DNA of 56,171 nt, from the IMG/VR virus record IMGVR_UViG_3300049489_000406, positions 1 through 56,171 of that record; one strand, 5' to 3'. Each line of letters opens with the position of its first letter. Positions within the stretch are counted from its first letter, which is position 1. Positions 12,605 through 55,615 of the stretch are shown one piece after another. The stretch is from a virus. Both the position numbers and the translations under genes were made by a program. The notes under the pieces were generated by a model, which worked only from the letters and a program-made list of their open reading frames with translations, had not been told where the DNA came from and did no database searches.

Positions 12605-12901
12605 ATGAGTGATCTAGTAGTGCCCAAACAAGATAAATGGAAGGAGTTAGTGTATAGGCATAAGGAATCCTTTAACCATTTCTTGTCTGATTTCATGCAA
12701 AAAGCTAATCCTGTCTTCTTAGAGTCTGTAAACTTCGCTCCCGAACATATTCAATTAGATTGTTTCCTTATGGAGATGCTTTTGCATTCATCTTTTCAAA
12801 GTTACGAGGATGTTTTAAAAGTTTTAAGATTGCATGCAATGAACACTATACTTTCCAAAAACGACTACATGGACGTATTAAAAAGGAGAAAACTATGCTA
12901 G
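12605..12901 (+). CDS. Hypothetical protein, paralogue of the 15639 gene
   Basis: A 98-aa helical protein. It shares with the 15639 product a W-K-E-L-V-type start, an F-rich helix, an E-S-V-x-x-x-P-E-type segment, a D-x-x-L motif and an L-H pair. The two copies bracket the PRPP/NAMPT/HAD genes. It overlaps the PRPP-synthetase-like gene by 7 nt (ATGCTAG), so they are coupled. Function unknown, possibly tied to the cassette. Confidence 0.6.
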   Translation: MSDLVVPKQDKWKELVYRHKESFNHFLSDFMQKANPVFLESVNFAPEHIQLDCFLMEMLLHSSFQSYEDVLKVLRLHAMNTILSKNDYMDVLKRRKLC

Positions 12902-13704
12902 ATGAGAGCAATTTTACAATCACTTATTTTAACTCAGGTGAGCCTAGGGTTGTGTTTAAAAATAATATACACGTTGATGCGCTAGAAGTTATTAAGTGGG
13001 ACAGCATAAAACATCCAAACCTCATGGTTCCAATACTTATGGCTGATGCTATATCTACTCACACTAGGGTACATTTTCTTAAACCTCTTATCGCAAGTTA
13101 TTTACCGTTCAGTAGACATGATAGGAATTTCGCGGTTGGTGAGTATGCACACATTGACCCAGCTTTAAACGTGCTTGGTAGATACTTTAGCCGCATAAAA
13201 ACGCATGCTTTACATTGTGAAAATAGGTGGGGCAATTTCATAGAAAACGTTTTAATCAATGAGGATAGCGTAGGTTCTCAAAATAAATTGATCATTTATC
13301 CGGATGCTTCGGCGTACAAGCACTATTCAAGAGATAGCAGAAAACCATATTATTTTCTTGAGAAGAAAAGAAATTTAGCCGATGTGGTAATTTCTTCATT
13401 GCAAGAAGATGCTATACGCGCTGCTTGTGCTGTGAATAATTATGAAGAGATACTATTACTTGATGATATTTGCGATGGTGGAAGAACGTTAATCGAATCC
13501 GCAAAATACATTAGAAATAATATTAACAATAGCACACCAATTAGAGCATGTGTATATCACGCATTCCCTACGTTCATAAAAAATAATCTATGGGAGTATG
13601 TAGATAGACTTTACGTTATTAATGCAGATTCATACAACAGTCTCATTGGTTTATCAGATATACCTAGTAACTTTTTACATAAAATAGAGGATGATCTATG
13701 CTAG
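12895..13704 (+). CDS. PRPP-synthetase-like pyrophosphokinase (Prs/Adps family)
   Basis: A 269-aa member of the ribose-phosphate pyrophosphokinase family. It has Y-L-P-F-S-R-H-D-R, corresponding to the Y-x-P-Y-x-R-Q-D-R loop of Prs, and a PRPP-binding motif L-L-L-D-D-I-C-D-G-G-R-T. It is shorter than bacterial Prs (about 315 aa). The ATG at 12895 follows AAAAGGAG, and the gene overlaps the NAMPT-like gene by 7 nt with an identical ATGCTAG junction. Family members make PRPP from ribose-5-phosphate, or in the NARP1 anti-defence pathway convert ADP-ribose to ADPR-pyrophosphate. No NMN adenylyltransferase is visible here, which favours the latter by inference. Confidence 0.85.
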   Translation: MLDESNFTITYFNSGEPRVVFKNNIHVDALEVIKWDSIKHPNLMVPILMADAISTHTRVHFLKPLIASYLPFSRHDRNFAVGEYAHIDPALNVLGRYFSRIKTHALHCENRWGNFIENVLINEDSVGSQNKLIIYPDASAYKHYSRDSRKPYYFLEKKRNLADVVISSLQEDAIRAACAVNNYEEILLLDDICDGGRTLIESAKYIRNNINNSTPIRACVYHAFPTFIKNNLWEYVDRLYVINADSYNSLIGLSDIPSNFLHKIEDDLC

Positions 13705-15173
13705 TAAATAACCCATTAATGCTTACTGATTTTTATAAGACTGGGCATATTAAACAGTATCCTCCAGGCACCACGCTTATATACTCTAACATGACCGCGA
13801 GGGATGATAAGTATACAATTTGCAATGAATCACCACTATATAATCATAAAGTGATTATGTTTGGTTTACATCATTTCATCTCTTTACTTAAAAATGAGCT
13901 TGACTCAATGAATTATAGAATGGCAGACGTGTATATGGATTTGGTTAAAGAAAGCACAGGAGTAGATCTAAACCCAAAAGATTACTACCGTTTACTTACT
14001 ATCAGTGGCATACCTTTGGAAATTAAAGGGTTTGAAGAAGGTGAGCTTGTTCCTGTAGGCATTCCATTGATAACTGTTCAGAACACGAATACGTCATTTT
14101 TTTGGCTCACCAATTTTATAGAAACCTGGATGAGTTCAGAAATTTGGAAGTGCATCAACAACGCAACAATAGCTTATGAGTACAAGAAGCTATTTACATA
14201 CTACGCCATGCAAACATGCGACACTATCGATCACGTAGACTTCCAAGGGCATGATTTTAGCTTTCGAGGAATGTCTGGCGCAGATGATGCTATTCTAAGC
14301 GGATTGGCTCATTTGACATGCTTCAAAGGCACCGACACGCTTCCTGCTATATATTACGGGAAAGTGTTGTACGGAAAAGATGTGACAGGGTACAGCATTC
14401 CCGCGACCGAGCATTCTGTAATGAGCGCTTACGGAGAAGATAACGAGCTTGAAACTTTTAGACATCTTATTAACGATGTCTACCCTTCTGGCTTAGTGTC
14501 CATCGTTAGTGACACTTGGGATTTTTGGCGTGTTATGAATGACTACTTGTCTATCCTCAAGGATGACATCCTAAAGCGTGAGGGTAAAGTAGTATTCCGA
14601 CCAGATAGCGGCAATCCTGCTGATATTGTTTGCGGCACAGCAACAGAAATTGGTGCTATTGAAGCCCTAGCTAATGTTTTTGGATTTAGTACGAACAGTA
14701 AGGGCTATAAAGAGCTAAACCCAAAAGTAGGACTGATCTACGGCGATGGAATCACAATTAAAACAGTCATTGACATACTCGAGAGATTAAAAGCCAAAGG
14801 CTGGGCGTCTAATAATATTGTCTTCGGTATTGGATCGTATACGTACCAGTACAGCACACGTGATAGCTTTTCTTTCGCTATGAAATCTACTTACACTGAA
14901 AGAGACGGCAAAGGGTATGAAATTTTCAAAAGCCCTAAAACTGGACAGTACAAAAAGTCCGCACGTGGTTTGATACGAGTCGATAAAAATGATAACGGAG
15001 AATTCACTTTTACTGATAGAGTGTCCAGGGGTGAGGAGCTAAAAACTTACTTAACTACGTATTTAAGCAAATACGGAATACAATACGATCACTCATTTAC
15101 AAGCATAAGAGATAAGATCAATGAAAACATACAAAAAGAGTTAAGCAATGCTGGAAAAGATAGTAATATTTGA
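13698..15173 (+). CDS. Nicotinamide phosphoribosyltransferase-like enzyme (NadV/Namat family)
   Basis: A 491-aa NAMPT-family enzyme, full length. Visible signatures are T-D-F-Y-K-T-G-H near the start, H-D-F-S-F-R-G-M-S, F-K-G-T-D-T, A-T-E-H-S-V-M, R-P-D-S-G-N-P and G-D-G-I. NadV makes NMN from nicotinamide and PRPP. In phage NARP1 the homologue joins ADPR-pyrophosphate to nicotinamide to give NAD+ directly. Coupled to the Prs-like gene, it forms a two-gene NAD module. Which of the two chemistries applies cannot be read from the sequence. Confidence 0.92.
   Translation: MLVNNPLMLTDFYKTGHIKQYPPGTTLIYSNMTARDDKYTICNESPLYNHKVIMFGLHHFISLLKNELDSMNYRMADVYMDLVKESTGVDLNPKDYYRLLTISGIPLEIKGFEEGELVPVGIPLITVQNTNTSFFWLTNFIETWMSSEIWKCINNATIAYEYKKLFTYYAMQTCDTIDHVDFQGHDFSFRGMSGADDAILSGLAHLTCFKGTDTLPAIYYGKVLYGKDVTGYSIPATEHSVMSAYGEDNELETFRHLINDVYPSGLVSIVSDTWDFWRVMNDYLSILKDDILKREGKVVFRPDSGNPADIVCGTATEIGAIEALANVFGFSTNSKGYKELNPKVGLIYGDGITIKTVIDILERLKAKGWASNNIVFGIGSYTYQYSTRDSFSFAMKSTYTERDGKGYEIFKSPKTGQYKKSARGLIRVDKNDNGEFTFTDRVSRGEELKTYLTTYLSKYGIQYDHSFTSIRDKINENIQKELSNAGKDSNI
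15123..15150 (+). repeat. 28-bp direct repeat, copy 1 (end of NAMPT-like gene)
   Basis: Matches 15614-15641 at 27 of 28 positions. Copy 1 encodes part of the NAMPT-like C-terminus and supplies the ribosome site and ATG of the HAD gene. The pair brackets the HAD gene and looks like an insertion scar. Confidence 0.85.
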
Positions 15174-15600
15174 CTTAGATGGAACCCTTAGTGACGACTC
15201 ACACAGAGAACACCACATAAGGAATCATCCTCAGAATTGGGAAGAGTACAACAAACACCAATTGCTTGATCCACCAAACATAGCAATTACCAAGATGTTT
15301 GAGGTGTTTTTGCACTCCAAATCTATTAAGCCAGTAATAATAACTGGTAGAACAGAAAGATACAGGAATAAAACTGTTGAATGGATTAAAAAGCATATTA
15401 ATTTAGGTGATTCATTTCCTGACCTGTTTATGAAACACAATGATGATTTTAGAACTGGGCACTTCTTTAAAAGGGAAACAGTGGAGAAATTAATGATAAA
15501 TCACGATGTTCTTTTTGTTGTTGATGATAGGGACAGCGCGGTGAAAATGTGGAGGGATGAAGGATTTACCTGTCTTCAATGTAGGTATGGCGATTTTTAA
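15148..15600 (+). CDS. HAD phosphatase resembling the 3-phosphatase domain of polynucleotide kinase
   Basis: A 150-aa HAD-fold phosphatase. Motif I is F-D-L-D-G-T-L (D9, D11), motif II region is I-I-T-G-R-T-E-R-Y-R-N-K-T, and the C-terminus has V-V-D-D-R-D-S-A-V-K-M-W-R and ends C-L-Q-C-R-Y-G-D-F, very like the phosphatase domain of T4 Pnkp. The kinase domain is absent. It could remove 3-phosphates from broken nucleic acid ends or hydrolyse nucleotides of the NAD pathway. It overlaps the NAMPT-like gene by 26 nt and precedes RtcB. Confidence 0.82.
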   Translation: MLEKIVIFDLDGTLSDDSHREHHIRNHPQNWEEYNKHQLLDPPNIAITKMFEVFLHSKSIKPVIITGRTERYRNKTVEWIKKHINLGDSFPDLFMKHNDDFRTGHFFKRETVEKLMINHDVLFVVDDRDSAVKMWRDEGFTCLQCRYGDF

Positions 15601-15613
15601 AAATGAGAAGAAC

Positions 15614-15641
15614 GAAAACATACAAAAGGAGTTAAGCAATG
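15614..15641 (+). repeat. 28-bp direct repeat, copy 2 (leader of the 15639 gene)
   Basis: Differs from 15123-15150 at one base (GGAG instead of AGAG). It provides the Shine-Dalgarno sequence and ATG of the 15639 gene. Confidence 0.85.
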
Positions 15642-15890
15642 AACGAGAGTAAAAAGTGGCTAGAACTGGTACAGAAACAGGAAAAAAGATTTAAGAATGC
15701 GGTCAATAGTGTTATTTCTCAGATAAATAAATCTTATTTTGAGGAATTGGAATCAGTGCCTGAAAAGTTTAGTGTAGATTATATTTTATTGAACGCATAT
15801 CTTCACGCTTATGACTTCCATGACGACTTCATTAATAACTATGTACCTACGGATTTACGCGAAAGTGTAAAAAAGTGTTTAACTATTTAA
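15639..15890 (+). CDS. Hypothetical protein, paralogue of the 12605 gene
   Basis: An 83-aa helical protein starting at the ATG inside the second 28-bp repeat, preceded by AAAGGAG. It shares a W-L-E-L-V start, an E-S-V-P-E-K-F segment and L-L-x-x-Y-L-H with the 12605 product, but is shorter. It closes the NAD/HAD cassette; the RtcB promoter overlaps its 3-prime end. Unknown function. Confidence 0.6.
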   Translation: MNESKKWLELVQKQEKRFKNAVNSVISQINKSYFEELESVPEKFSVDYILLNAYLHAYDFHDDFINNYVPTDLRESVKKCLTI

Positions 15891-15906
15891 CTTTTAGTGT
15901 TATACT
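15878..15906 (+). promoter_or_regulatory. RtcB promoter, AGTGTTA class
   Basis: TTTAAC (15878-15883), a 17-bp spacer and TATACT (15901-15906). AGTGTTA at 15896-15902 overlaps the -10 exactly as in the 2637 promoter, and the downstream ATGTATTGAAA block matches the 9631 promoter. Confidence 0.7.
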
Positions 15907-15936
15907 AGATGTATTGAAACTTTAAGAAGTACAGTG

Positions 15937-17139
15937 ATGAAAACTGTAGAGATCATAGAAGGTTTTAATGGCGGCATGGCTAAAGCGTGGATTAAGTACG
16001 TTCCACTCGATGGAAACGCTATTGAGCAAGTGCGCCAAACTTCTGACCTTCCTTTTATTTTTAAGCATGTAGCGGTAATGCCTGATGCGCATTACGGTGT
16101 GGGAAGCACAGTAGGCAGTGTAATACCTACAAAAAATGCAATTATTCCTGCGGCTGTAGGAGTAGATATAGGGTGCGGCATGATTGCAGCTAGGCTTTCA
16201 ATTAGTGCATCTAATCTGCCAGACAACTTGGCTGAGATGAGATCGCGCATAGAGTCTACCGTACCCACGGGATTTTCTAATTTCAAAGAACCTCAAAATA
16301 CAGCTATAAACCGTTGGAGCAGTGATTTATCTTTAAATTTCAATAAGTTTATAGCTAATTCAGTGCCAGGAGCTGATGAGAAGATATGCTTAAACCAATT
16401 GGGTACGCTAGGATCAGGCAATCACTTCATTGAGCTATGCATTGATGAAGAGCAGAGGGTGTGGATTATGCTGCACTCGGGGTCGAGAGGCATAGGCAAT
16501 AAGATAGGATCGCACTATATCAGTCTTGCAAAGACTGAGATGGATCGCCTTGGTATAAAATTGCCCAGTGAGAATTTATCCTACTTTACAAAAGAATCTC
16601 AGCACTTTGATGATTACTTTAACGCTGTCTTCTGGGCGCAAGAATACGCAAAGACTAACAGAGAAATTATGCTATTTAATACGCTAAATGCGGTACGTAA
16701 ATTTGTAAAGAATCCGCATCTAGCGGTTGAAGATTTTTGTGTTCAGTGTCATCACAATTATGTCTCTTTAGAGACACACTTCAATGAAGAGGTATACATA
16801 ACGAGAAAAGGCGCTATAAAAGCTGACAAAGGCGTGTACGGGATCATACCTGGGAGCATGGGTGCAAAATCTTTTATCGTGAAGGGCTTAGGCAATGAGG
16901 AAAGTTTTTGTAGCTGCTCCCACGGGGCTGGCAGAGTTATGTCAAGGGGTGAGGCTAAGAAGCTAATAGATTTAGATGATCACGAGCGCGATACTCAAGG
17001 TGTTGAGTGCAAAAAGGATATGTCTGTCATTGATGAAAGCCCGAGAGCCTACAAAAATATCGATTCAGTCATGAAATCCCAAGAGGACCTGGTAGAAATT
17101 GTGCATACGCTAAAACAGGTTTTGTGCGTTAAGGGTTAA
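15937..17139 (+). CDS. rtcB: RtcB RNA ligase
   Basis: A 400-aa RtcB, which joins RNA 3-phosphate or 2,3-cyclic phosphate ends to 5-OH ends using GTP and Mn2+. Motifs in order are P-D-A-H-Y-G-V-G, G-V-D-I-G-C-G-M (metal Asp/Cys), G-S-G-N-H-F-I-E, H-S-G-S-R-G-I-G, Q-C-H-H-N-Y, G-S-M-G and S-H-G-A-G-R-V-M-S-R (guanylylated His). All key residues are present. It has its own promoter. In phages RtcB is thought to repair tRNAs cut by anticodon nucleases; the nearby PNKP-like HAD supports an RNA-repair theme. Confidence 0.95.
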   Translation: MKTVEIIEGFNGGMAKAWIKYVPLDGNAIEQVRQTSDLPFIFKHVAVMPDAHYGVGSTVGSVIPTKNAIIPAAVGVDIGCGMIAARLSISASNLPDNLAEMRSRIESTVPTGFSNFKEPQNTAINRWSSDLSLNFNKFIANSVPGADEKICLNQLGTLGSGNHFIELCIDEEQRVWIMLHSGSRGIGNKIGSHYISLAKTEMDRLGIKLPSENLSYFTKESQHFDDYFNAVFWAQEYAKTNREIMLFNTLNAVRKFVKNPHLAVEDFCVQCHHNYVSLETHFNEEVYITRKGAIKADKGVYGIIPGSMGAKSFIVKGLGNEESFCSCSHGAGRVMSRGEAKKLIDLDDHERDTQGVECKKDMSVIDESPRAYKNIDSVMKSQEDLVEIVHTLKQVLCVKG

Positions 17140-17156: not shown

Positions 17157-17687
17157 ATGACAAACATTATAGAGTTGGCGATCGAGCTTGAAAAGAAATA
17201 CGGCAGTTGGTGGCTTGAACGTGTACCAGAAAAAGACAGATCATACGAGTTATGTAGGCTAGCTGTGAAAGACACGGGATTTAACTTACGAGAAGTACCT
17301 GCGGAGTGTAAAACATATGAGATCTGCTTTGCAGCAATAAAGAAAAGTCCTGATGTCTTAGAGCATGTCCCGCACGAGCATAGAACGATGGAGCTATGCC
17401 TCGAGGCTACTCGTAAGACTTACAGTTTTATGCACATACCGGAGTCTATACTACAAGAGGTAAAGCAGAGAACAGATGAATATCGCGCAAACAAACTTGT
17501 AGAACGGGCGTGGAAAGTGATTGTTAAGCACGATGGAATGATGCTTAAAAACGTGCCTGACCAATTCAAAACTAAAGAAGTGTGTAGGTTAGCTTTTAAG
17601 GCTAACAATGACGCGGTCAATTACGTGCCACATTATCTACTTACTAGAGATATGAAGCGTTTTATAAAGTCAAAAGGTGATTTATGA
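17157..17687 (+). CDS. DUF4116 repeat protein 1
   Basis: A 176-aa protein made of about four DUF4116 units with the pattern L-x-x-V-P-x-x-x-R-T-x-E-L-C-x-x-A-V. Middle residues (about 95-120) form a charged helical linker shared with the 18395 and 20212 proteins. DUF4116 occurs in amoeba-associated bacteria and giant viruses and has no known function. It follows RtcB by 17 nt and overlaps the next gene by ATGA. Confidence 0.75.
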   Translation: MTNIIELAIELEKKYGSWWLERVPEKDRSYELCRLAVKDTGFNLREVPAECKTYEICFAAIKKSPDVLEHVPHEHRTMELCLEATRKTYSFMHIPESILQEVKQRTDEYRANKLVERAWKVIVKHDGMMLKNVPDQFKTKEVCRLAFKANNDAVNYVPHYLLTRDMKRFIKSKGDL

Positions 17688-18020: not shown

Positions 18021-18398
18021 ATGAACAATTGGTCGCGCTTCTGGGAGAGACTAATAGTTGAGAAGTTTTGCCAAAAAGAAAAAATAGAGTCGAAGATAAA
18101 AAAAGATTTGATAGCTGGCGGTATTGATAGCCTCAGCGAATATCTAAATGAAAAACGGGTTGTTTTTATTTTTAGTGGTGTTGAAAATGTCCTAAATAGG
18201 ACTAGTGTAGTTGATGTGGATTCTGGTGATTGGTTCTTATCGCTCCCTTCGAGTATGAATGAGTTAAAGAGAGACAACATAGGGGTCATCATCTTTGTTC
18301 ATGAGAATTACGTAAGATCGGTCATCAGACAAAACTCAGGTCAAAGGCTAGCAGCGTATCAAAAATATAGTCTTTGCATAGAGAATGGTGACTTATGA
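18021..18398 (+). CDS. Hypothetical protein
   Basis: A 125-aa mixed alpha/beta protein; the basic helical N-terminus is followed by beta-strand-like segments (V-V-F-I-F-S-G-V, G-V-I-I-F-V-H). Start taken at the ATG at 18021. It overlaps the next DUF4116 gene by ATGA. No family recognised. Confidence 0.5.
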   Translation: MNNWSRFWERLIVEKFCQKEKIESKIKKDLIAGGIDSLSEYLNEKRVVFIFSGVENVLNRTSVVDVDSGDWFLSLPSSMNELKRDNIGVIIFVHENYVRSVIRQNSGQRLAAYQKYSLCIENGDL

Positions 18399-18940
18399 GA
18401 ACAGAACAGGAATGGATTAAAGCGTTAAGCAGGTGGTCAGATGATTGTATCTTCCTTGACGCTGTCCCAGTAGATCAAAGAACCCACGCAGTGTGTCTCG
18501 CCGCAGTTAAGAAATACGGACGCGACTTAAAACACGTGCCCGTACCACTTAGAACAGTCGAAATATGCTCAGAGGCGTTATATAAGGGTTTCGGTGGGTT
18601 CTGGCATGATGCAGAAAGAAAAGAGTTTATCCCCGAAGCTATCGTACAAGAGGTGCAGAAAGCAGTTGAAGAGAGAAAGAAAAATGACAAGCTTTATAAT
18701 GCTTGGCTCACACTTGTAAAAAATGACTGGCGTGTGTTGAAGTACGTGCCAGATCATTTAAGGCGTGAAGGAATTATAAAAGCCGCATTAAAACAGAGTC
18801 CAGAGGCTACTGCTATGATTGTAGCTAATATTAGCTTATCTCAGGATCAAATAGATAGATTGAGAGATAGTATGCATAAATTTTATTCTGGCACTCAAAA
18901 TTCTGTGGTTATTCTGCCGCCTGAAAAAGGTATGGATTAG
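18395..18940 (+). CDS. DUF4116 protein fused to a portal-protein fragment
   Basis: A 181-aa chimera. Residues 1-139 are DUF4116 repeats and linker, closely paralleling the 20212 protein up to the sequence Q-S-P-E-A. Residues 141-181 then align without gaps to 41 residues of this phage's own portal protein (28 identical); the DNA (18815-18937) matches the portal gene (51833-51955, minus strand) at 99 of 123 bases by my count. A stop follows at once. The copied part is the conserved HK97-type portal segment containing S-Q-D-Q and F-Y-S-G-x-Q-N. It is therefore a recombination product kept in frame; its function is unknown. Confidence 0.85.
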   Translation: MRTEQEWIKALSRWSDDCIFLDAVPVDQRTHAVCLAAVKKYGRDLKHVPVPLRTVEICSEALYKGFGGFWHDAERKEFIPEAIVQEVQKAVEERKKNDKLYNAWLTLVKNDWRVLKYVPDHLRREGIIKAALKQSPEATAMIVANISLSQDQIDRLRDSMHKFYSGTQNSVVILPPEKGMD

Positions 18941-19128: not shown

Positions 19129-19333
19129 GCAATATTTGTTGGACGTAATAAAAAGAAACGACATCAGCATACGATCCTTTAAACAATATTTTTTTCAGGA
19201 GCCGAGTTATTCCCATATCGATACAGCCACTACGTTGATAGAGGGTGAGAAGATAAAGCATCTTAAGGAATCAAAATCACTCGATGCTTATAACAGGCTA
19301 ATAGGTAAGAAACCTATACGGAGTGGAATATGA
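19112..19333 (+). CDS. Hypothetical protein (GTG start)
   Basis: A 73-aa basic, helical protein. The GTG start has AGGGAGA just upstream inside the previous gene. It overlaps the next DUF4116 gene by ATGA. No motif recognised. Confidence 0.5.
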   Translation: MDVKDRQYLLDVIKRNDISIRSFKQYFFQEPSYSHIDTATTLIEGEKIKHLKESKSLDAYNRLIGKKPIRSGI

Positions 19334-19644
19334 AAAAAGATGAGCAATATTGTGATGATAGTTACTGGTTAAAACAGGTAAAAATAGACGGGAGCCTCGA
19401 CGATGTCCCAACGGAACATAGGACTTATGAAGTATGCCTTGAAGCCGTGAAGGTGTGGCACTTAGCACTAAATCACGTACCAGATCAGCATCTAACGCGC
19501 GATTTGATATCTGCGTCTTTGACTAGAGCTTATGATAACGGATACGAAGAAGGCGAATCGGCAGGGTATCATCACGGGTATGAGCAAGGCGAATCTTTTG
19601 GGTATGAACAGGGTTATAGTGACGGAGTAAAACATGAAAACTAG
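19330..19644 (+). CDS. DUF4116 protein 3 with GY-rich C-terminal repeats
   Basis: A 104-aa protein with about two DUF4116 units (D-D-V-P-T-E-H-R-T-Y-E-V-C and L-N-H-V-P-D-Q-H) followed by a C-terminal tail of G-Y-x-x-G repeats (G-Y-E-E-G, G-Y-H-H-G, G-Y-E-Q-G, G-Y-S-D-G). The same tail end (G-Y-x-D-G-V-K-H-E) recurs as a 19-codon ORF at 20163. It overlaps the next small gene by 11 nt. Confidence 0.65.
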   Translation: MKKDEQYCDDSYWLKQVKIDGSLDDVPTEHRTYEVCLEAVKVWHLALNHVPDQHLTRDLISASLTRAYDNGYEEGESAGYHHGYEQGESFGYEQGYSDGVKHEN

Positions 19645-19828: not shown

Positions 19829-20113
19829 ATGGATAACGAGCAGTACTGGTTAGATCAATTTGGTATGCCACGCGATAAACGTGACAATAAATATGCTGAT
19901 CTTAAAGATGTACCACATCATTTAAGAACTCTCAAGGTTTGTAAGTCAGCGTTGTACAGTTGCCCTTTCAATTTAATACACGTGCCCGTTCATCTCAGAA
20001 ATGATGAGATAGTACAAATAGCCTTAGATGATTTAATACATGTACCCTATTATTTTAGAGATAATGATACGGTACAAAGAGCCTTAGATGCTATAGAAGC
20101 AGTTGTGAGCTGA
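19829..20113 (+). CDS. DUF4116 protein 4 (short)
   Basis: A 94-aa protein with about three compact DUF4116-like units (D-V-P-H-H-L-R-T, H-V-P-V-H-L-R-N, H-V-P-Y-Y-F-R-D); the last two are nearly tandem duplicates that share a D-L-I-H-V-P-type run. GAGGA precedes the ATG. Confidence 0.65.
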   Translation: MDNEQYWLDQFGMPRDKRDNKYADLKDVPHHLRTLKVCKSALYSCPFNLIHVPVHLRNDEIVQIALDDLIHVPYYFRDNDTVQRALDAIEAVVS

Positions 20114-20162: not shown

Positions 20163-20222
20163 ATGAGTTTATATAACGGTTATGCAAAAGGCTATATAGA
20201 CGGAGTAAAACATGAATTATGA
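20163..20222 (+). pseudogene. Remnant of a GY-repeat tail ORF
   Basis: A 19-codon ORF ending G-Y-A-K-G-Y-I-D-G-V-K-H-E-L. It matches the end of the 19330 protein and, like it, overlaps the ATG of the following gene (ATGAA). It is probably the residue of a duplicated gene end that now serves as a translated leader for the 20212 gene. A TG-A-TATACT extended -10 lies upstream at 20111-20119. Confidence 0.45.
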
Positions 20223-21063
20223 GCAATTAAAAGCCGATAGAGATCGTTTGCGTTCTGATATAGAAAAGATTAAACACCTACCTCTAAAAGACGAAGAATG
20301 TGAACGTGATGACTGTTTTAGTTTATCAAAAGTGAAAGGTCTAACTGTTCAATCAGTCTATTTTGATGAGCATAAAGTATGTATAAAAATGCACGTGAAC
20401 AGCAAAGGCATAGATTCTTTAGTTCTACAATGTGAAGGTTGCACCTTATATGATTACGATCAACCTATATATTTCTTAAATGGACACCGTATAGATGGTA
20501 TATTTTCGCTCACCAGAGTAGAAAAACAGTTTACCTATATTTCATTCAAAATTTACTCATTTAAAGGCGTTGCAATTTTTACTTTTTATGGGGATTCATT
20601 GGATTTTAAAAAGGTAAAAAATAATTCACAAATCTTAATAAGTGATATAAAAAGCGATAAAGAATGGATTAAGGATATAGTCAATCGTAAATGCAGATTA
20701 GAAGATTTACCCGAACAAAATAGAACCTACGGTGTTTGTCTCAGCGCGGTAGAATTTTACCCACCATATCTGGAAGATGTACCCGAACACTACAAGACCG
20801 CAGAGATGTGTGCAAAAGCCCTATACACGGGTTTCAAATCCAAATGGGATGAGAAAAAATTAATACCCGCAAATGTGTTTGAAGCTGCTAAAGCCCTAGT
20901 AAAAGATAGAAAGAAAAAAGAAATGCTATACATATCATGGCTAAATTTAGTAAGAGATGATTGGAGGGTAATAGAGCACGTACCTATTTGTTTTAAAAAT
21001 AAAAAAATGTGTGCGGTAGCTTTAAGTCAAAGCCCAGAAGCTAAAAAATTTATTGAGGAGTAG
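20212..21063 (+). CDS. DUF4116 protein 5 with novel N-terminal domain
   Basis: A 283-aa protein. Residues 1-30 are a charged helix, about 40-145 form a beta-rich domain I do not recognise, and about 148-283 are DUF4116 repeats and linker closely matching the 18395 protein (E-W-I-K, N-R-T-Y-G-V-C, K-A-L-Y-T-G-F, S-W-L-N-L-V-R-D-D-W-R-V). It ends normally after Q-S-P-E-A, exactly where the 18395 paralogue switches to portal sequence. Confidence 0.7.
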   Translation: MNYEQLKADRDRLRSDIEKIKHLPLKDEECERDDCFSLSKVKGLTVQSVYFDEHKVCIKMHVNSKGIDSLVLQCEGCTLYDYDQPIYFLNGHRIDGIFSLTRVEKQFTYISFKIYSFKGVAIFTFYGDSLDFKKVKNNSQILISDIKSDKEWIKDIVNRKCRLEDLPEQNRTYGVCLSAVEFYPPYLEDVPEHYKTAEMCAKALYTGFKSKWDEKKLIPANVFEAAKALVKDRKKKEMLYISWLNLVRDDWRVIEHVPICFKNKKMCAVALSQSPEAKKFIEE

Positions 21064-21354: not shown

Positions 21355-22071
21355 ATGAGAGAAAAGATTATAGCGACAGATGATACGATCCACGACATTG
21401 TTAGGCGCGAGATAGAGATAGTCGGAAATGATGGAGATTTGAACCACATCGATACGAGTCGGGTGACGAATATGTCAAGACTTTTTCAATACGTGGGGGA
21501 TTTTAACTGTGATATATCGAAATGGGACACCTCTAGGGTTACTACTATGCGTTTTATGTTTAAGGAGTGCTACGCATTTAATCAACCCATTGGTAATTGG
21601 GATACTTCTAATGTCTCCGATATGTACTGTATGTTCTCCGAATGTTTTAACTTTAATCGGGATATTTCGAAGTGGGATACCTCTAAAGTTAAAGATATGC
21701 GTTGGATGTTTTATAGGTGTTCTTCATTTAATCAACCCATTGGTGGTTGGGACACATCTAAAGTTACTGATATGCTCGCGATGTTCGATGGGTGCAAATC
21801 ATTTAATCAACCCATTGGTGGTTGGGACACATCTAAAGTTACTGATATGCGCTTCATGTTTAATGTGTGCTATTTCTTTAATCAAGACATCTCGAAATGG
21901 GATACTTCTAAGGTTACCGATATGGGCGCCATGTTTTATGGGTGCTCATCATTTAATCAAGACATCTCGAAATGGGATACTTCTAAGGTTACCAGTATGT
22001 GCTGGATGTTTAAATACAGCATCAAAATGGAAGAGAAAAACAAACCAAAATTTACCAACCAGGGGGATTAG
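21355..22071 (+). CDS. BspA-like DUF285 repeat protein 1
   Basis: A 238-aa protein of about seven BspA-like units (about 25 aa each) with the pattern [16 protein letters not shown]-x-x-M-F. The first 45 residues form a conserved cap (I-I-A-T-D-D-T-I-H, then [15 protein letters not shown]). Such leucine-rich-like repeats are known from Mycoplasma, Bacteroides and protists, often in adhesion. No signal peptide is visible, so it is probably cytoplasmic. AGAGG precedes the ATG. Confidence 0.85.
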
Positions 22072-22074
22072 AAA

Positions 22075-23511
22075 ATGAGACCGAGGATTATCGCTACAGA
22101 TGATACGATCCATGAAATCGTCAGACATGAGATAGAGATAGTCGGAAATGATGGAGACCTGAACCATATTGATACGAGTCAAGTCACGGATATGTCAGGA
22201 CTTTTTGAAGACTTGGAAGATTTTAACTGTGACATATCGAAATGGAACACATCTAAAGTTATTACTACGCAGCGTATGTTTTGGGGTTGCTCTTCATTTA
22301 ATCAAGATATTTCAAAGTGGGATACCTCTAATGTTACCGATATGTGTGGGATGTTTCATGGATGCCATTCATTCAATCAAGACCTATCGAAGTGGAACAC
22401 GCCTAAAGTTACTAATATGAGTTCGATGTTTAGTGAATGCAGCTCATTCAATCAAGACTTATCTAAATGGGATACTTCTAATGTCACTACTATCGCTGCA
22501 ATGTTCGAATGGTGCTCTTCATTTAACCAAGACCTGTCGAAGTGGGACACTTCTAAAGTTACGGATAAGCTATGGATGTTTTTCAGATGCGACAAAATGG
22601 AAGAGAAAAACAAGCCTAAGTTTAACAACCTTGAGGAGCAAAAAATGAGACCAAGGATTATAGCGACAGATTATACTATCCACGACATTGTTAGACGTGA
22701 AACAAGAATAGTTGGGAACAATGGGGATTTGAACCATATTGATACGAATCAAGTCACGAATATGTCAGGACTTTGTGAACATCTGAGATATTTTAACTGT
22801 GATATATCGAAATGGGATACCTCTAATGTTTCCGATATGAGTAGAATGTTCTACGGATGCTTATCATTTAATCAAGACATCTCAAAGTGGGATACCTCTA
22901 AAGTTACAGATATGACCTTTATGTTTTGTGAGTGTTTATCATTTAATCAAGACCTGTCGAAATGGGATACCTCTAAAGTTACTGATATGGGATGTATGTT
23001 TGATAGGTGTTCTTTATTTAATCAACCTATTGGCAATTGGAATACATCTAATGTCACTGTTATGAGATATATGTTTGATGAGTGTCGCTCATTCAATCAA
23101 GACCTCTCCAAGTGGAACACGTCTAAAGTTACTGATATGCGCGGGATGTTTAGTAGATGCTTTTTATTCAATCAAGACCTCTCCAAGTGGAACACGTCTA
23201 AAGTTACTTATAAGTGCTCGATGTTTGACGACTGCGACAAAATGGAAGACAAAAACAAACCAAAATTTACCAACCAAGAGGAACAAAAAATGAAACGACA
23301 ATACACTAAAAGAACAAAGGATGAGAAAGTCACACGTCTTATCCTATGTGTTGAGAAATTGATGACTAAAAGGGATGTCATTAATGGTAAAATACAATCC
23401 ATCAACGAAAAAATAGCAAAGATTAAACATGGAAAGTTTAATAAACTGATAGGTGGTTTAACGGACGATCAGAAACAAATGATAGTGAAATACATCGAGG
23501 ATAGGTTTTAA
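22075..23511 (+). CDS. BspA-like DUF285 protein 2, a fused tandem gene duplication
   Basis: A 478-aa protein made of two complete copies of the 21355-type protein joined in frame at about residue 190 ([10 protein letters not shown], then M-R-P-R-I-I-A-T-D). In the 21355 gene the same junction is a stop, then the next ATG, so loss of a stop fused the copies. The last 70 residues are a Lys-rich coiled coil not found in the first gene. The stop overlaps the methyltransferase start (TAATG). Confidence 0.85.
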   Translation: MRPRIIATDDTIHEIVRHEIEIVGNDGDLNHIDTSQVTDMSGLFEDLEDFNCDISKWNTSKVITTQRMFWGCSSFNQDISKWDTSNVTDMCGMFHGCHSFNQDLSKWNTPKVTNMSSMFSECSSFNQDLSKWDTSNVTTIAAMFEWCSSFNQDLSKWDTSKVTDKLWMFFRCDKMEEKNKPKFNNLEEQKMRPRIIATDYTIHDIVRRETRIVGNNGDLNHIDTNQVTNMSGLCEHLRYFNCDISKWDTSNVSDMSRMFYGCLSFNQDISKWDTSKVTDMTFMFCECLSFNQDLSKWDTSKVTDMGCMFDRCSLFNQPIGNWNTSNVTVMRYMFDECRSFNQDLSKWNTSKVTDMRGMFSRCFLFNQDLSKWNTSKVTYKCSMFDDCDKMEDKNKPKFTNQEEQKMKRQYTKRTKDEKVTRLILCVEKLMTKRDVINGKIQSINEKIAKIKHGKFNKLIGGLTDDQKQMIVKYIEDRF

Positions 23512-27487: not shown

Positions 27488-27678
27488 TTATTATTAATGG
27501 CTATCGTCCCCGAGACCCTGGAAAAGTGTGGATAACGCAACATATCTTATCGTCTTTTAAAAATTTTCTCCTGCAATACCAAATTGCAGGAGAAAATCAT
27601 GAGACAACACCATCCGGAATTCCAGACGCTAAGGGGTATAACCCAGAAGCATCAATCCATCAAGAGCATGACAAATGA
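27484..27678 (+). CDS. Duplicated small gene, copy 1 (fused or disrupted)
   Basis: A 64-aa ORF. Its start (G-Y-R-P-R-D-P-G-K-V-W-I-T-Q-H-I-L) matches the 27675 ORF and its end (I-P-D-A-K-G-Y-N-P-E-A-S-I-H-Q-E) matches the 27794 ORF. In copy 2 these are two separate genes. A 10-nt deletion after the internal ATG (27599) puts the two parts in one frame here, and a perfect hairpin lies between them. ATGA overlap with the YpsA-like gene. Unknown function; possibly decaying. Confidence 0.5.
   Translation: MIIINGYRPRDPGKVWITQHILSSFKNFLLQYQIAGENHETTPSGIPDAKGYNPEASIHQEHDK
27563..27597. terminator. Perfect 15-bp hairpin within duplicated gene copy 1
   Basis: ATTTTCTCCTGCAAT (27563-27577) pairs perfectly with 27583-27597 around a 5-nt loop. 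On the minus strand the stem is followed by a short T run, so it could terminate minus-strand transcripts; no T run follows on plus. The stem includes the ribosome-site GGAG ahead of ATG 27599, so it could also hide that start. Copy 2 lacks the hairpin. Confidence 0.5.
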
Positions 27679-27770
27679 ATTTTTCTAAGGGCTATCAGCC
27701 CAAACACGCAAAGCCTAACCACGACCCTGACAAAATTTGGATACCGCAGCATATCTTAGCGTTTTTTTAA
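27675..27770 (+). CDS. Duplicated small gene, copy 2, first ORF
   Basis: A 31-aa ORF (start M-N-F-S-K-G-Y-Q-P-K, then D-P-D-K-I-W-I-P-Q-H-I-L) homologous to the first half of the 27484 ORF. Overlaps that ORF by ATGA. No known family; may be a short leader peptide or a remnant. Confidence 0.4.
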   Translation: MNFSKGYQPKHAKPNHDPDKIWIPQHILAFF

Positions 27771-27793
27771 AAACCAAAATACCGGAGAAAGTC

Positions 27794-27988
27794 ATGAAAC
27801 AACATCATCCAAAAACGTCCAGAATTCCAGATGCTAAGGGGTATAACCCAGAAGCATCAATCCATCAAGAGCCTGACGCTGTCTACGCGGTAAGCCCCCA
27901 ATCACAAAATCTATTTAGAACAGTTGTGGGGCGGCACGAGCGTAAAACGTGTTACTATATATTAAAATTAGAAATTGTAAACGGCTAA
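27794..27988 (+). CDS. Duplicated small gene, copy 2, second ORF
   Basis: A 64-aa protein starting at ATG 27794 with GGAG 6 nt upstream. It contains I-P-D-A-K-G-Y-N-P-E-A-S-I-H-Q-E, shared with copy 1, followed by a basic C-terminal half. This looks like the intact version of the gene broken in copy 1. Function unknown. Confidence 0.5.
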   Translation: MKQHHPKTSRIPDAKGYNPEASIHQEPDAVYAVSPQSQNLFRTVVGRHERKTCYYILKLEIVNG

Positions 27989-46831: not shown

Positions 46832-47229
46832 ACTTTACTAGCCTGCTGAGTTTCTAGCCCTGTTTTTAATGCGTGAATTTCTAAGTACACGTCGTCTTCG
46901 TTTACGTTAATTATGCGAAGTATCTCATATCTGTAGTCTTTAAAAAGTATCCAATTTTCAGTGCTTAAATCACCTATATACTTTATATAAAACTTATGGG
47001 TGGGTAAATCCTCTTTAGCTACACTATCAGCTATTGCGTCGCCCTTTATCGTAACAATAGCTGCCCAAACCGATCCCATCTCTTCATAGTCGAAGCTGTA
47101 ATCTACAAGGTTTACTGATTGATAAGTAGGCGTAACAATAGCCTTCTTAAACAACGTTATCTTGTGCTTTAAATCGCCAAGGCATAACTTTGACTTTGTA
47201 AACTGTACATATTTGCACTTAGTGCTCAT
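46828..47229 (-). CDS. Head-tail adaptor (PF05521, SPP1 gp16-like)
   Basis: A 133-aa head-closure protein: L-K-H-K-I-T-L-F-K-K, G-S-V-W-A-A-I, I-L-F-K-D-Y-R-Y-E-I-L-R-I. Normal size and position between connector and gp10-like gene. Confidence 0.82.
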   Translation of the reverse strand: MSTKCKYVQFTKSKLCLGDLKHKITLFKKAIVTPTYQSVNLVDYSFDYEEMGSVWAAIVTIKGDAIADSVAKEDLPTHKFYIKYIGDLSTENWILFKDYRYEILRIINVNEDDVYLEIHALKTGLETQQASKV

Positions 47230-47855
47230 AACTCTAATATTCTATATTTATCGAGTATTGCTTTAGATGCACCGCTTAATACTTTCTGACATCCGCAGCT
47301 CGAAACATCAGAAACTCCGCAATCCCCACGGTTAGAGTATAAATCTGCAATAATCTGCATCATAGCTACTTGCAAATCCACGGGTACGTAGCTTTCATCG
47401 ACTCCGTACCCTGCGGTAAACTGAATGCGTATGACTTGCACCCTCTTTAACACGTCAGTTGGAAACGTCTTATCTGGAAGCTCTAGTATTTTGCTGTAAT
47501 CTATATCGTCAGTAGTGAAATAAGTATCGATAGGTACCACAGTCTCTACGTTATTAGTATTTAAGTACGTAAATAGGGTTAAAGTATCAAACGGTGAACG
47601 TTTTAGCAGTATTCCGCAGCACCCATCAGCATAAAAACAGTCTCTATAAGTTAGGAATTCCGTAGTTATTAAAACTCTTTTTGTGTATGACTCTATAAAC
47701 TCAGTAGCCGCCCTAATCAAAAAAGTTAATATAGCATCGTCATCATTTGTATCAATTTTTAAATACGATTTTAAAGTAGCCAAGGATATAGCAAGATTCG
47801 TTGGGAAACTTAGCTTGCGATACTGGCTATAATTAATGCATGCACTACTCTGCAT
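47226..47855 (-). CDS. Head-tail connector (gp6-like)
   Basis: A 209-aa connector: L-A-T-L-K-S-Y-L-K-I-D-T-N-D-D-D-A-I-L-T, I-R-A-A-T-E-F-I-E-S-Y-T, I-Q-F-T-A-G-Y-G and a Q-V-A-M-M-Q-I-I-A-D-L-Y-S-N-R-G helix. All match the gp6-like family that docks on the portal. Confidence 0.85.
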   Translation of the reverse strand: MQSSACINYSQYRKLSFPTNLAISLATLKSYLKIDTNDDDAILTFLIRAATEFIESYTKRVLITTEFLTYRDCFYADGCCGILLKRSPFDTLTLFTYLNTNNVETVVPIDTYFTTDDIDYSKILELPDKTFPTDVLKRVQVIRIQFTAGYGVDESYVPVDLQVAMMQIIADLYSNRGDCGVSDVSSCGCQKVLSGASKAILDKYRILEL

Positions 47856-50676: not shown

Positions 50677-51384
50677 TCAAAAGTATATTGCACTGCAACG
50701 ACAATTGCAAATATTTGATGCAGTGGCTCCATGCATAGTGTCGCCAGGGTATAATAAGCTTTCTCCATTCACTATAAATAGCTCTTTAGTGTTAACAGTC
50801 TGACCAAAGGCATCACCATGCCATTTTCTCTCTCTGCCGTCTAATATCGTAACCCACGACTTTTTAGCTTGAGACTCAGAAGCAATCACATATTTTTTAC
50901 TCTCTACAGCGTTTTGAGTTTCAGTTACAGCAATTAGCTTACGTCTAGCTTCGGCATGCTGCTTAAATAGCGTTTCTTTTAACTTCTCATCTAGAGAAGC
51001 CTCACCCTCAATTTTATCCTGCACTTTTTTGAAATCCGACATCAGCGTGTGCAAAATCACACCTGTGCGAACAGCTAAAAGTGACACTATTAGCTTACTA
51101 AATGCCGCGTTACTGTCTTGCTGTTCGCTTCTGCCCTGTTCCGCAGTGTTGGCTACGCTGTATAACTCACTTGTTACTAACACGTTTATGCGTTCGTAAT
51201 GTTTTAGCAATATCGCGTATAAAATATCATTTATCTTAATCATGCTTCCGTTTGTAAACTTGCTCATAAAATACCTAAGCACGTAAATAAAGAAAGCTAT
51301 TAATTCTTTCTCAAGTTTCCTCTCCTGTTTGATCTTCAACGCTCTGTCTTTGTTGTGTGCTCGTATCTGTTCCTGTTGCGTCAT
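50677..51384 (-). CDS. Minor head protein (Mu gpF / SPP1 gp7 family)
   Basis: A 235-aa protein. The C-terminal 60 residues carry the family motif: W-V-T-I-L-D-G-R-E-R-K-W-H, F-I-V-N-G-E, P-G-D-T-M-H-G and C-N-C-R-C. The N-terminal part is helical. It overlaps the portal gene by 74 nt in another frame. Confidence 0.85.
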   Translation of the reverse strand: MTQQEQIRAHNKDRALKIKQERKLEKELIAFFIYVLRYFMSKFTNGSMIKINDILYAILLKHYERINVLVTSELYSVANTAEQGRSEQQDSNAAFSKLIVSLLAVRTGVILHTLMSDFKKVQDKIEGEASLDEKLKETLFKQHAEARRKLIAVTETQNAVESKKYVIASESQAKKSWVTILDGRERKWHGDAFGQTVNTKELFIVNGESLLYPGDTMHGATASNICNCRCSAIYF

Positions 51385-52660
51385 ACACGTTATTCTCGCC
51401 TACTGGGACTTGCGTAGTTTGAACATAAACATCATCACCACCGCTATCCAGCTTAGGATCACCACGCATCTCCCGTATCTCATTGTAAGTGTAAGCCCCT
51501 GATGCTGTTTTATCTTTTATAATGTTAGACTTTCTAACAGCTAATGCGGCTATCTCATTCTCATCATAAGTTAAAGTGTACCTAGAATTATCAATCTTAC
51601 CGTAAAAAAATAATAAGTCTTCAAGCTGTTTATACAGTGTCTTCACAAGCGGGATGACGGCATTGTCATACAACATCAAGCTTGCAACTTCTAAATTGTT
51701 ATACGTCATAGCTTGATTAGACACTAAAGCCGCCGGTATCTCTAAACGTCTATATATCGACGCTTCTGTGTTCTGCCTTAACACTTGAAAGTCTGAATCT
51801 GTGCGGTTGCTTTGACCGTCAAGGCTTCTAAAATCCATACCCTCCTCAAGCAGCATAATATCCCCAGCATTTTGAGCGCCAGAATAGAATCTATGCACGC
51901 TATCCCTCAGTCTATCTTTTTGATCTTGAGATAAACCGAAATTAGCGACTATCATACCAGACGGCTTAACGCCTTTTTTTAGTCTTGATATGTTATGCTT
52001 TGAAAGACCAATCATCTGCTCAATATCATATGAAACAGCAACTAGTTTAGAGATTCCAAAACTCGAACCTTTAAATCTCGTATCGTAATTTCTGATAAGT
52101 CGCGCAAACTTAGTGCCGTTTTGTGATACGTAAAAAGCGGGGTTTGAAGACTCATCGAGCGTAAAAACCTCATTGTAACCTTCTTTATTAACACTTACAG
52201 TTTTAGCACTGCTGTTTATAGTGCCTTGCAAACTGTCAAGCAAATTAAGGTATTGAGGCTCAACATATGCTAATTCTTGAAGTTTAGATATTCCAGTAGC
52301 CGCTAAGAAAACATTACCGAAAATCTGATATGTGTTAGATAAATTATATATAAATTGATACTGAGTCATAGATGAATTGGGAGATTTAAGTGCATAAAGT
52401 ATGTCATGATCTACATATACTTTATTTACTTTATCGTAAAGCTTTGGCTCGATAGCTGCAACTTCTTTGCTTATTCTATCTATACCGTCAGCCACGGCAG
52501 GGCATCTAGTGTAATAATTTTCTAAACAGTAAAAAGCAACAATACTATCTCCGCTATCGATAGCATTGCATAAAAATGATCCGAAAGTACTCGTGCTACA
52601 GCTTTTAGTTTCTACGCTGTTATCAAATTTATGCTTAGATAGTCTCTTAAATAGCCGCAC
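51311..52660 (-). CDS. Portal protein (HK97 type)
   Basis: A 449-aa portal: A-D-G-I-D-R-I-S-K-E-V-A near residue 50, F-G-I-S-K-L-V, the G-M-I-V-A-N segment at residues 235-240, N-A-G-D-I-M-L-L-E-E-G-M-D, and E-I-R-E-M-R-G near the C-terminus. Residues 236-276 (51833-51955) are the ones copied onto the DUF4116 protein at 18395. Follows the terminase by 9 nt. Confidence 0.92.
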   Translation of the reverse strand: MRLFKRLSKHKFDNSVETKSCSTSTFGSFLCNAIDSGDSIVAFYCLENYYTRCPAVADGIDRISKEVAAIEPKLYDKVNKVYVDHDILYALKSPNSSMTQYQFIYNLSNTYQIFGNVFLAATGISKLQELAYVEPQYLNLLDSLQGTINSSAKTVSVNKEGYNEVFTLDESSNPAFYVSQNGTKFARLIRNYDTRFKGSSFGISKLVAVSYDIEQMIGLSKHNISRLKKGVKPSGMIVANFGLSQDQKDRLRDSVHRFYSGAQNAGDIMLLEEGMDFRSLDGQSNRTDSDFQVLRQNTEASIYRRLEIPAALVSNQAMTYNNLEVASLMLYDNAVIPLVKTLYKQLEDLLFFYGKIDNSRYTLTYDENEIAALAVRKSNIIKDKTASGAYTYNEIREMRGDPKLDSGGDDVYVQTTQVPVGENNVYDATGTDTSTQQRQSVEDQTGEET

Positions 52661-52669
52661 GGTTACGTC

Positions 52670-53914
52670 TTAAAACACATCAAAACCAGGATTATTAGCA
52701 TTATTCATTAAATAAGTCAATCCGTGCACTAAAGCATCTAAACGATTTGGCGATCTTAACGTTTCAAGCGGCACGTATTCTGTCATCTCACTTTCTAAAT
52801 CGTTCAAGCCAGGCGGGTGATAAACTCTACCCTCTTCATACAGATATAGCACCGCATCGGCTCTCACATGCTTACCCACTTTAGAATGTACTTTAACTAC
52901 TCGCGCTGTAGAATTAAGCGTTTTTAAATATGTCTTTAGAAGATCACCTACACCGTTTGACTCATACACTATGCAATTTGCTCTATACATATTGTACGCA
53001 TTCACAACTATATTGCCCCACGCCCCTGGGGATGTACGTGTCGAGAGATCAGCGATAACATTGACCCCGTGCCCGTCCGTACCTAAAACTACAATACCCA
53101 CCATATCCGAATTCTCACCTGATGTAGTCGAGGGATCAACAGCTACGCATATGCGACTTTCAACTACTTTCTTCGCTGCATTGGCATAGATAATGTGATT
53201 GTAGTTAAATATCGCACCAATTTTGTCGCTCAAAAACTCACCGTGTTCAAAACGCGCTCGCTCTCTACTTGACATAGACGCAAGCACTTTTGTTATATAG
53301 TCTGAGTTTATGTTATCCGCATTATCAACGGGATTCATTTTTAAGTACGCAAAATCCTCAGGACTTGCGAGTTTAATTTTTGATATAGGGTCGACTTTTT
53401 CTACGAACAGCTTATAAGTCCAGTGCGACATCGATGGTGGATTGCAACCGTAAAAAATCTTATTCTTAAGCTGAGTTTTTTCAGCGAGTCGCGACAGTAC
53501 GATAGCGCGTGACTCATAGCTTATCTGTGAGCACTCTTCTAAAAATATCGTAGAAAACTCATTACCCAATATTTTTTCTGTTCGCTCTTTATCGTCAAGC
53601 CCGCCAAAAAGAATACGTGAGCCGTTGGGTAACTCAAGATAGTAATCTGTTCTGTTGAGATGCACTTTAAGCTCAGGAAAACACACGCTCAGAAGCTTCG
53701 GTAACGTGCCATTCAAGATTGAAGTTTTAAGATGATTGAATCTCTTTCTAAAAACTGCATGATTACTCTTACACTTGAGTGCTCGAATAATCAGATTACG
53801 CATATTGATAAACGTCTTGCCAGATCGTGCGCCGCCGCACAGCATTATGTGCGTTGCAGCAGAGGCGTGCAGCGCTGTAGCTTCTATCTGTTTAGCTGTC
53901 TTTACAAAAGACAC
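52670..53914 (-). CDS. Terminase large subunit
   Basis: A 414-aa packaging motor. Walker A is G-G-A-R-S-G-K-T (K33), Walker B T-I-F-L-E-E-C, coupling motif Y-G-C-N-P-P, and the nuclease domain starts V-A-V-D-P-S-T-T. GTG start. It is of the PBSX-like terminase type. The small subunit is separated from it by the 54025-55615 plus-strand island. Confidence 0.92.
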   Translation of the reverse strand: MSFVKTAKQIEATALHASAATHIMLCGGARSGKTFINMRNLIIRALKCKSNHAVFRKRFNHLKTSILNGTLPKLLSVCFPELKVHLNRTDYYLELPNGSRILFGGLDDKERTEKILGNEFSTIFLEECSQISYESRAIVLSRLAEKTQLKNKIFYGCNPPSMSHWTYKLFVEKVDPISKIKLASPEDFAYLKMNPVDNADNINSDYITKVLASMSSRERARFEHGEFLSDKIGAIFNYNHIIYANAAKKVVESRICVAVDPSTTSGENSDMVGIVVLGTDGHGVNVIADLSTRTSPGAWGNIVVNAYNMYRANCIVYESNGVGDLLKTYLKTLNSTARVVKVHSKVGKHVRADAVLYLYEEGRVYHPPGLNDLESEMTEYVPLETLRSPNRLDALVHGLTYLMNNANNPGFDVF

Positions 53915-54037
53915 TCACAAGTCCTAACATGCCAATTATTTTAAGATGTTAACTACATTAATGGTGCAGTGCAACAGCGCTAAGGGTCAGCAACTGCAAG
54001 GATTCTCACAATTTCTACAGATATTTGAGTAAAACTA

Positions 54038-54066
54038 TTGACACTAGTGTTAAGTCTTGATATGAT
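54038..54066 (+). promoter_or_regulatory. Island promoter 1 with palindromic operator
   Basis: TTGACA (54038-54043), 17-bp spacer, TATGAT (54061-54066). The palindrome ACACTAGTGT (54041-54050) overlaps the -35, and AGTGTTA lies at 54046-54052. The whole block of about 60 bp, from ATATTTGA through CTCAAGTTAA, recurs at 54706 and 55220. Confidence 0.88.
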
Positions 54067-54106
54067 GATCTCAAGTTAAACAAATAAACAGATAGGGTAG
54101 AAAAAA

Positions 54107-54685: not shown

Positions 54686-54705
54686 AAAATATTTGAATAA
54701 AACTA

Positions 54706-54734
54706 TTGACACAAGTGTTAAGTCTTGATATGAT
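54706..54734 (+). promoter_or_regulatory. Island promoter 2 with operator variant
   Basis: TTGACA (54706-54711), 17-bp spacer, TATGAT (54729-54734). Operator ACACAAGTGT (54709-54718) differs from the other two copies at one base, so binding may be weaker. Confidence 0.88.
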
Positions 54735-54776
54735 GATCTCAAGTTAAGCAGTTAAACAAAACTAAAAGGCGAAAAA

Positions 54777-55019
54777 ATGAATCAAGAAGACATCAAAAAA
54801 GTATACGAAATGTTAAAAAGCCGTACTATACACCCGCGCGGAAGTTTCGATGACGCTGGCAGGTGGTATGCTAATAATGACGACTTAATAAACGTGAGAG
54901 CACCCAGCCGTGCATTTCCATATTCTCAAATGAATGCGTGCAGAACATTAAAGTACGTGAAAGCTGTAGCTGAAAAATTTAGCTGCGAAACAGTTGAAGA
55001 GTTAAAGCTAAGAGTGTAG
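54777..55019 (+). CDS. Hypothetical early protein, island unit 2a
   Basis: An 80-aa protein with a helical start, a basic aromatic centre (R-G-S-F-D-D-A-G-R-W-Y) and a helical end. No family recognised. Driven by promoter 2, with AAGGCG as ribosome site. Confidence 0.58.
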   Translation: MNQEDIKKVYEMLKSRTIHPRGSFDDAGRWYANNDDLINVRAPSRAFPYSQMNACRTLKYVKAVAEKFSCETVEELKLRV

Positions 55020-55024
55020 ATAAT

Positions 55025-55210
55025 ATGTATCAAGTGATCGTTGTAAATAGCATAGAGTATCTAGTAAAAGAGAACGAAAACACCGCAGTAGTATATCAAA
55101 AAGTTAAAAAGGATTTCAAATACGTATGTACTTTAGAAATACCTGATAGCACCGCCACACACTACATAGCAAATTGGCTACTTAACTGCACAAAAAGTGA
55201 AAATATTTGA
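55025..55210 (+). CDS. Hypothetical early protein, island unit 2b
   Basis: A 61-aa protein, 5 nt after the previous gene. Alternating strand pattern (Y-Q-V-I-V-V-N, T-A-V-V-Y-Q-K-V) suggests a small beta-rich fold. Its stop lies within the promoter 3 repeat block. No family recognised. Confidence 0.52.
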   Translation: MYQVIVVNSIEYLVKENENTAVVYQKVKKDFKYVCTLEIPDSTATHYIANWLLNCTKSENI

Positions 55211-55219
55211 ATAAAACTA

Positions 55220-55248
55220 TTGACACTAGTGTTAAGTGCTGATATGAT
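55220..55248 (+). promoter_or_regulatory. Island promoter 3 with palindromic operator
   Basis: TTGACA (55220-55225), 17-bp spacer, TATGAT (55243-55248), operator ACACTAGTGT (55223-55232). Third copy of the block. Confidence 0.88.
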
Positions 55249-55291
55249 GATCTCAAGTTAAACGAATAAACGAAACAAACAGGATAGAAAA

Positions 55292-55615
55292 ATGAAGCAT
55301 CAAAACGTAATAGCACTAACAAACAGAGTAGGCAAATTAGTATCAGAACATGAAGTGAAATTCACATTTAACGACTACATCGATGACGATTGCAGAGTAG
55401 ATCAGTACGCAAGAGTGACTGTATATAAATACGAAAAAGAATCAATCATAAAAGTAGAAAAATCAGGCTGGGTAAAATCTTTTTACATGCAACCCGAGGA
55501 TGACATTATAGAGATGCTACTATCGATGCCCACGGGGAATGGTGTAGTTAAAACGATGACACGCAGAGAATTTAATTCTATCTTTGACGTAAATAAAGGT
55601 TTTATCTTATTTTAA
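55292..55615 (+). CDS. Hypothetical early protein, island unit 3
   Basis: A 107-aa protein, charged, with beta-type segments (V-K-F-T-F-N-D-Y, Y-A-R-V-T-V-Y-K-Y). No family recognised. AGGATAG ribosome site. Its stop overlaps the small terminase stop by 4 bp. Confidence 0.57.
   Translation: MKHQNVIALTNRVGKLVSEHEVKFTFNDYIDDDCRVDQYARVTVYKYEKESIIKVEKSGWVKSFYMQPEDDIIEMLLSMPTGNGVVKTMTRREFNSIFDVNKGFILF

Follow-up and report, generated by a model that had tools for sequence, protein, structure and literature searches.

How a phage protein of the DUF4116 family came to end in a piece of a portal protein, and whether this piece contributes a function, are the questions raised by an ORF of an uncultured phage, viral record IMGVR_UViG_3300049489_000406, whose complete 56,171 nucleotides were analysed and are termed the window. 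The start codon of this ORF overlaps the stop codon of the preceding one (ATGA), and the translated protein has the C-terminus ...KQSPEATAMIVANISLSQDQIDRLRDSMHKFYSGTQNSVVILPPEKGMD. The fusion and its portal counterpart comprise the following features:

18395..18940, + strand: chimeric ORF, 181 aa, with a predicted DUF4116 alpha-solenoid (approximately residues 1-138) and a portal-derived tail (residues 141-181)
18810..18938, + strand: portal-homologous segment, 80.6% identical to 51832-51960 of the - strand (blastn, codon alignment)
51311..52660, - strand: HK97-type portal gene, 449 aa, PF04860 E 3.9e-41, probably sharing its lineage with the fragment's donor
51832..51960, - strand: portal counterpart of the fragment, residues 236-276, placed in an AlphaFold2 model

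The assignment to DUF4116, already made in a preliminary description of the locus, is borne out by a Pfam match of residues 105-138 to PF13475 at 27.2 bits, above the gathering threshold of 24.9 bits for this family. DUF4116 proteins have been modelled as alpha-solenoids (PMC8078820), and the AlphaFold2 model of the fusion, calculated from a shallow alignment of five rows, likewise presents a helical solenoid with a mean pLDDT of 81; residues 1-140 are all helical and mostly reach about 90. The best BFVD matches of the fusion are also named DUF4116, with E-values of 0.003 or weaker and TM-scores of about 0.3. As judged from the predicted solenoid fold, the function of the fusion presumably resides in its DUF4116 part and likely consists in protein binding. 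Ordinary members of the family have more repeats or a plain end, whereas the fusion carries a portal-like tail.

Blastn aligned positions 18810-18938 with 51960-51832 at 104 of 129 identical bases (E 6e-31), and the window portal belongs to PF04860, which confirms the earlier identification of the tail as a fragment of an HK97-type portal. Fusion residues 141-181 pair without gaps with portal residues 236-276, whereby 28 of 41 residues and 99 of 123 bases are identical; the same counts had been reported before, and when 18815-18937 was aligned pairwise to the reverse-complemented stretch 51833-51955, exactly the corresponding 13 amino-acid and 24 base differences appeared. On sequence comparison the copied portal piece is thus real and its homology unambiguous. 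In a tblastx comparison of the early part (1-30330) with the late half of the window the portal segment was the sole strong match, and other early-late fragment copies were not found at useful significance. Beyond the stop codon of the fusion, the similarity to the portal gene possibly goes on; lenient gap costs suggest this (P 0.02-0.05), but the result depends on the costs chosen (P 0.25 with stricter ones).

The window portal is related to the structurally solved portals of HK97, RcGTA and phiXa; it matches the PDB profiles 9lbn and 8cez, and its Foldseek relatives are RcGTA/HK97 portals. Its AlphaFold2 model (67-row alignment, pTM 0.70) contains a stem helix (210-229) and a next long helix (284-305), between which a strand (235-239), a helix (245-258) and a second strand (275-279) are located. 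In the R4C portal, the stem is formed by residues 301-323 and 377-393 and the clip by residues 324-376 (PMC10276861). According to the model, the captured piece is a strand plus helix of the clip domain situated between the two stem helices; given the strand-helix-strand order, it takes in the first strand and the helix of the clip but breaks off at the very start of the last strand. Although its homology to portal residues 236-276 links the tail to the clip of HK97-type portals (PF04860), the fusion holds only 41 of 449 residues and has lost the conserved motif; lacking stem, wing and crown, it cannot be a portal.

Five related ORFs, the fusion with its DUF4116 part among them, are clustered between positions 17157 and 21063. 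The other four are:

17157..17687, + strand: DUF4116 paralogue without portal tail, 176 aa, PF13475 E 5e-16, 37% identical to the fusion
19330..19644, + strand: DUF4116-like paralogue with a Gly/Tyr-rich tail (phrog_4785; sequence comparison)
19829..20113, + strand: short DUF4116-like paralogue (sequence comparison)
20212..21063, + strand: closest paralogue, without portal tail, its C-terminal half 37-38% identical to the fusion, ending in QSPEAKKFIEE

The ORF at 20212 has no Pfam match of its own at E 0.01 and is taken as a paralogue because of its 37-38% identity to the fusion protein. As previously described, it parts from the fusion just after SPEA; its C-terminus, however, is not QSPEA but reads QSPEAKKFIEE, and it possesses seven more residues. 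The portal-like tail is absent from all six DUF4116 proteins examined from phages and plasmids, so that the objection that unrelated family members might share such a tail without portal similarity found nothing in its favour. Other duplications are present in the paralogue array. Furthermore, a 19-codon ORF (MSLYNGYAKGYIDGVKHEL) within 20164-20223, ahead of the gene at 20212, is similar to the C-terminal part of the 19330 protein (GYSDGVKHEN; 19601-19644), which may be regarded as another sign of shuffling in the cluster.

Several other features of the window were noted as well. Upstream of the cluster, at 12760-15173, a NAMPT-like gene (PF04095, PF18127) lies directly 3' of a gene which, by eye, we take to resemble a PRPP synthetase gene and for which no Pfam match was obtained; the pair is presumably reminiscent of phage NAD+ restoration (NARP-like) counter-defence. 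At 15148-17139, an RtcB RNA ligase gene comes after that of a PNKP-type phosphatase, likely an RNA repair pair. Downstream of the cluster, two DUF285/BspA-like repeat ORFs with a 75-bp unit (21355-23511), one of which looks like the other in doubled form, and a diverged tandem duplication (27514-27672 and 27723-27877), in which one 60-bp stretch is 95% identical, were found. Three repeats of about 70-97 bp with 87-94% identity (54021-54089, 54686-54781, 55200-55296) lie largely between small + strand ORFs and are possibly shared promoters or operators. Finally, 10.8 perfect tandem copies of the 13-bp unit ACCCATCTCTATC occupy 56032-56171 up to the very end of the contig, a place of possible truncation or mis-assembly.

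The closest relative found of the fragment is the portal of the window phage itself. Among viral contigs only the portals of prophage G043 (IMGVR_UViG_2515154119_000001, 54,113 bp; 47% identical overall) and of L072 (about 32%) are moderately close to the window portal. G043 shares the whole structural module with the window phage, from the tail genes to the terminase, including a major capsid protein that is 54% identical. The fragment matches the window portal in 28 but the G043 portal in only 12 of 41 residues, while the two portals share 16 of 41. At portal position 262, the fragment has the Thr of the G043 portal and the window portal an Ala; the donor was therefore probably an ancestor or near relative of the present window portal and not that portal itself. 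G043 contains none of the early genes of the window, no DUF4116 gene, no fusion and no second portal piece, which is consistent with a lineage-specific fusion event, although its whole early region is unrelated. The search for DUF4116-portal fusions suggested in the preliminary description returned none from the viral, genome and phage collections; neither relatives of the fusion nor the same fusion in independent genomes, as expected for a conserved fusion family, were detected in these contigs and records. A portal match was obtained in 31 records of viruses and phages, of which the window record alone has a second, partial one. A literature search on portal fragments and fusions brought up nothing relevant.

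The substitutions offer a view on the fate of the fragment after its capture. The 24 base differences are distributed over codon positions 1, 2 and 3 in a flat pattern of 8, 6 and 10. The values of dN (0.15) and dS (0.68) obtained by NG86 for the fragment-portal pair form a ratio that mixes the selected portal branch with the fragment branch. In neutral simulations from the portal sequence, 13 or fewer amino-acid changes arose at P 0.05-0.15, and the frame stayed free of stop codons at P 0.42-0.48, so that function cannot be deduced from the open frame. When the fragment is split post hoc, the first 29 codons (141-169) show six amino-acid changes in 15 base changes, fewer than under neutrality (P 0.01), and the last 12 many (P 0.95). 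The low change in codons 141-169 is partly expected from the portal branch and could also reflect a constraint on the helix; such weak constraint may leave room for a partial co-option. Changed sites are not more variable among portals than unchanged ones (P 0.76, 15 portals) and include G266, A265 (conserved in 15 of 15 portals) and, within the L-E-x-G motif, L271; the conserved MLLEEG is lost, LLEEG having become PPEKG. Because MLLEEG was a search pattern for part of a larger set of 66 portals, which is hence biased, conservation was rechecked on these 15 portals, fetched without the motif. Rooting the comparison on the G043 portal assigns five of the six informative residue changes to the fragment branch. 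The numbers are small, yet they suggest relaxed constraint after capture.

In the AlphaFold2 model of the fusion, the clip-type strand-helix-strand fold is not reproduced by the tail: the first strand is predicted as helix, and the last one is absent or disordered, as derived from the shallow alignment. Instead, helices 137-145 and 150-164 continue the solenoid with a pLDDT of about 70 falling to 55, and the last 15 residues (167-181) are predicted to be disordered (pLDDT < 50). The paralogues were placed wrongly when the fusion was aligned with clip pieces, and folding made no use of this alignment. The possibility that the tail has come to resemble a DUF4116 repeat was considered and rejected, the motif score being below background and unchanged since capture.

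Phage ORFs can become mosaic or fused by illegitimate recombination. In our judgement, such an event probably exchanged the end of one of the five DUF4116 paralogues for a portal piece, which is now drifting. The DUF4116-portal junction itself is apparent from the sequence; the recombination route, the replacement of the native end and the mostly drifting state are what we infer. In this scenario, approximately 129 bp of a portal gene of the own lineage or of a close relative would have become attached, in frame, to the 3' end of one DUF4116 gene, thereby replacing or displacing the native C-terminus of this family member. Released from the constraints acting on a portal, the piece would then have drifted and would have been retained because it does no harm to the alpha-solenoid, to which its helix might at most contribute a minor end-cap. 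The neutral relic was one of three readings previously put forward and is the one best supported, by the flat codon pattern, the fragment-branch changes at conserved portal residues, the disordered end and the lack of conservation in the relatives found. Against it speak the intact frame of the fusion, the boundaries near those of the clip, which is a structural unit, and the subneutral amino-acid change in codons 141-169.

The latter finding speaks for a rival reading, an exaptation, in which the captured helix (approximately residues 148-164) caps the DUF4116 solenoid and is selected for stability, whereas residues 167-181 are a drifting leftover. The model, with its helices extending the solenoid before the disorder sets in, and the contrast between the constrained codons 141-169 and the unconstrained last 12 are in line with it. 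However, the tail is unlike a DUF4116 repeat and has grown no closer to one since its capture, so that the idea of an end-cap derives mainly from the structural model, whose alignment has only five rows; moreover, the split behind the constraint test was chosen post hoc, and the test took in the portal branch too. We consider the exaptation rather unlikely.

Very unlikely is a role as clip mimic, in which the tail would attach to one of two proteins of competing phages, their large terminase or their head-tail adaptor, and so block packaging or tail joining. The fragment does represent a clip strand plus helix, and both proposed targets are known clip partners: in HK97 the clip makes contact with the large terminase and, at a later stage, with the adaptor (PMC10359639), and in RcGTA the adaptor hook is bound by the clip helix (PMC7296036). 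However, the final clip strand is missing, the L-E-x-G motif is broken, the first strand is predicted to be helical, ring-forming parts are absent, the nearest targets would be the terminase and adaptor of the phage itself, and the tail is unconserved in any relative found. In the window, the terminase gene is located at 52670-53914, and candidates for the head-tail connector include 47226-47855. The loss of the motif and of a predicted clip strand equally weighs against the proposed interference with the portals of competing phages. A putative trans-acting clip module on a DUF4116 binding scaffold, engaging terminase, adaptor or portal-sensing immunity, appears just as improbable. Still fainter is the prospect of a decoy for portal-sensing immunity of the Avs4 type. 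Avs1-4 recognize conserved structural patterns of the packaging machinery, among them large terminase and portal (PMC12931631); but it is conserved structure that is sensed, and most of this fold of the portal, its conserved motif and a predicted clip strand are missing from the fragment, and no PADLOC model matches the neighbouring genes. Mimic and decoy would both need binding surfaces that are partly missing and are without support here. An assembly chimera or chance similarity, conceivable for a single metagenomic contig, is barely credible, as E 6e-31 excludes chance and the 19% divergence from the portal copy excludes a misjoin of the same sequence.

With its sharp junction inside a gene and its diverging fragment from an unrelated gene, the recombination relic corresponds to other mosaic phage ORFs, although the donor is a structural gene nearest to that of the own phage and not of a distant one. 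The fusion is accordingly best understood by this ordinary explanation, as an example of phage mosaicism within a gene. A functional tail would constitute a domain-sized portal mimic, which the present evidence does not favour. The locus provides a clean case of a hypothetical phage protein acquiring a new C-terminus from a structural gene, and it cautions that a portal-like match does not always indicate a portal or a counter-defence gene.
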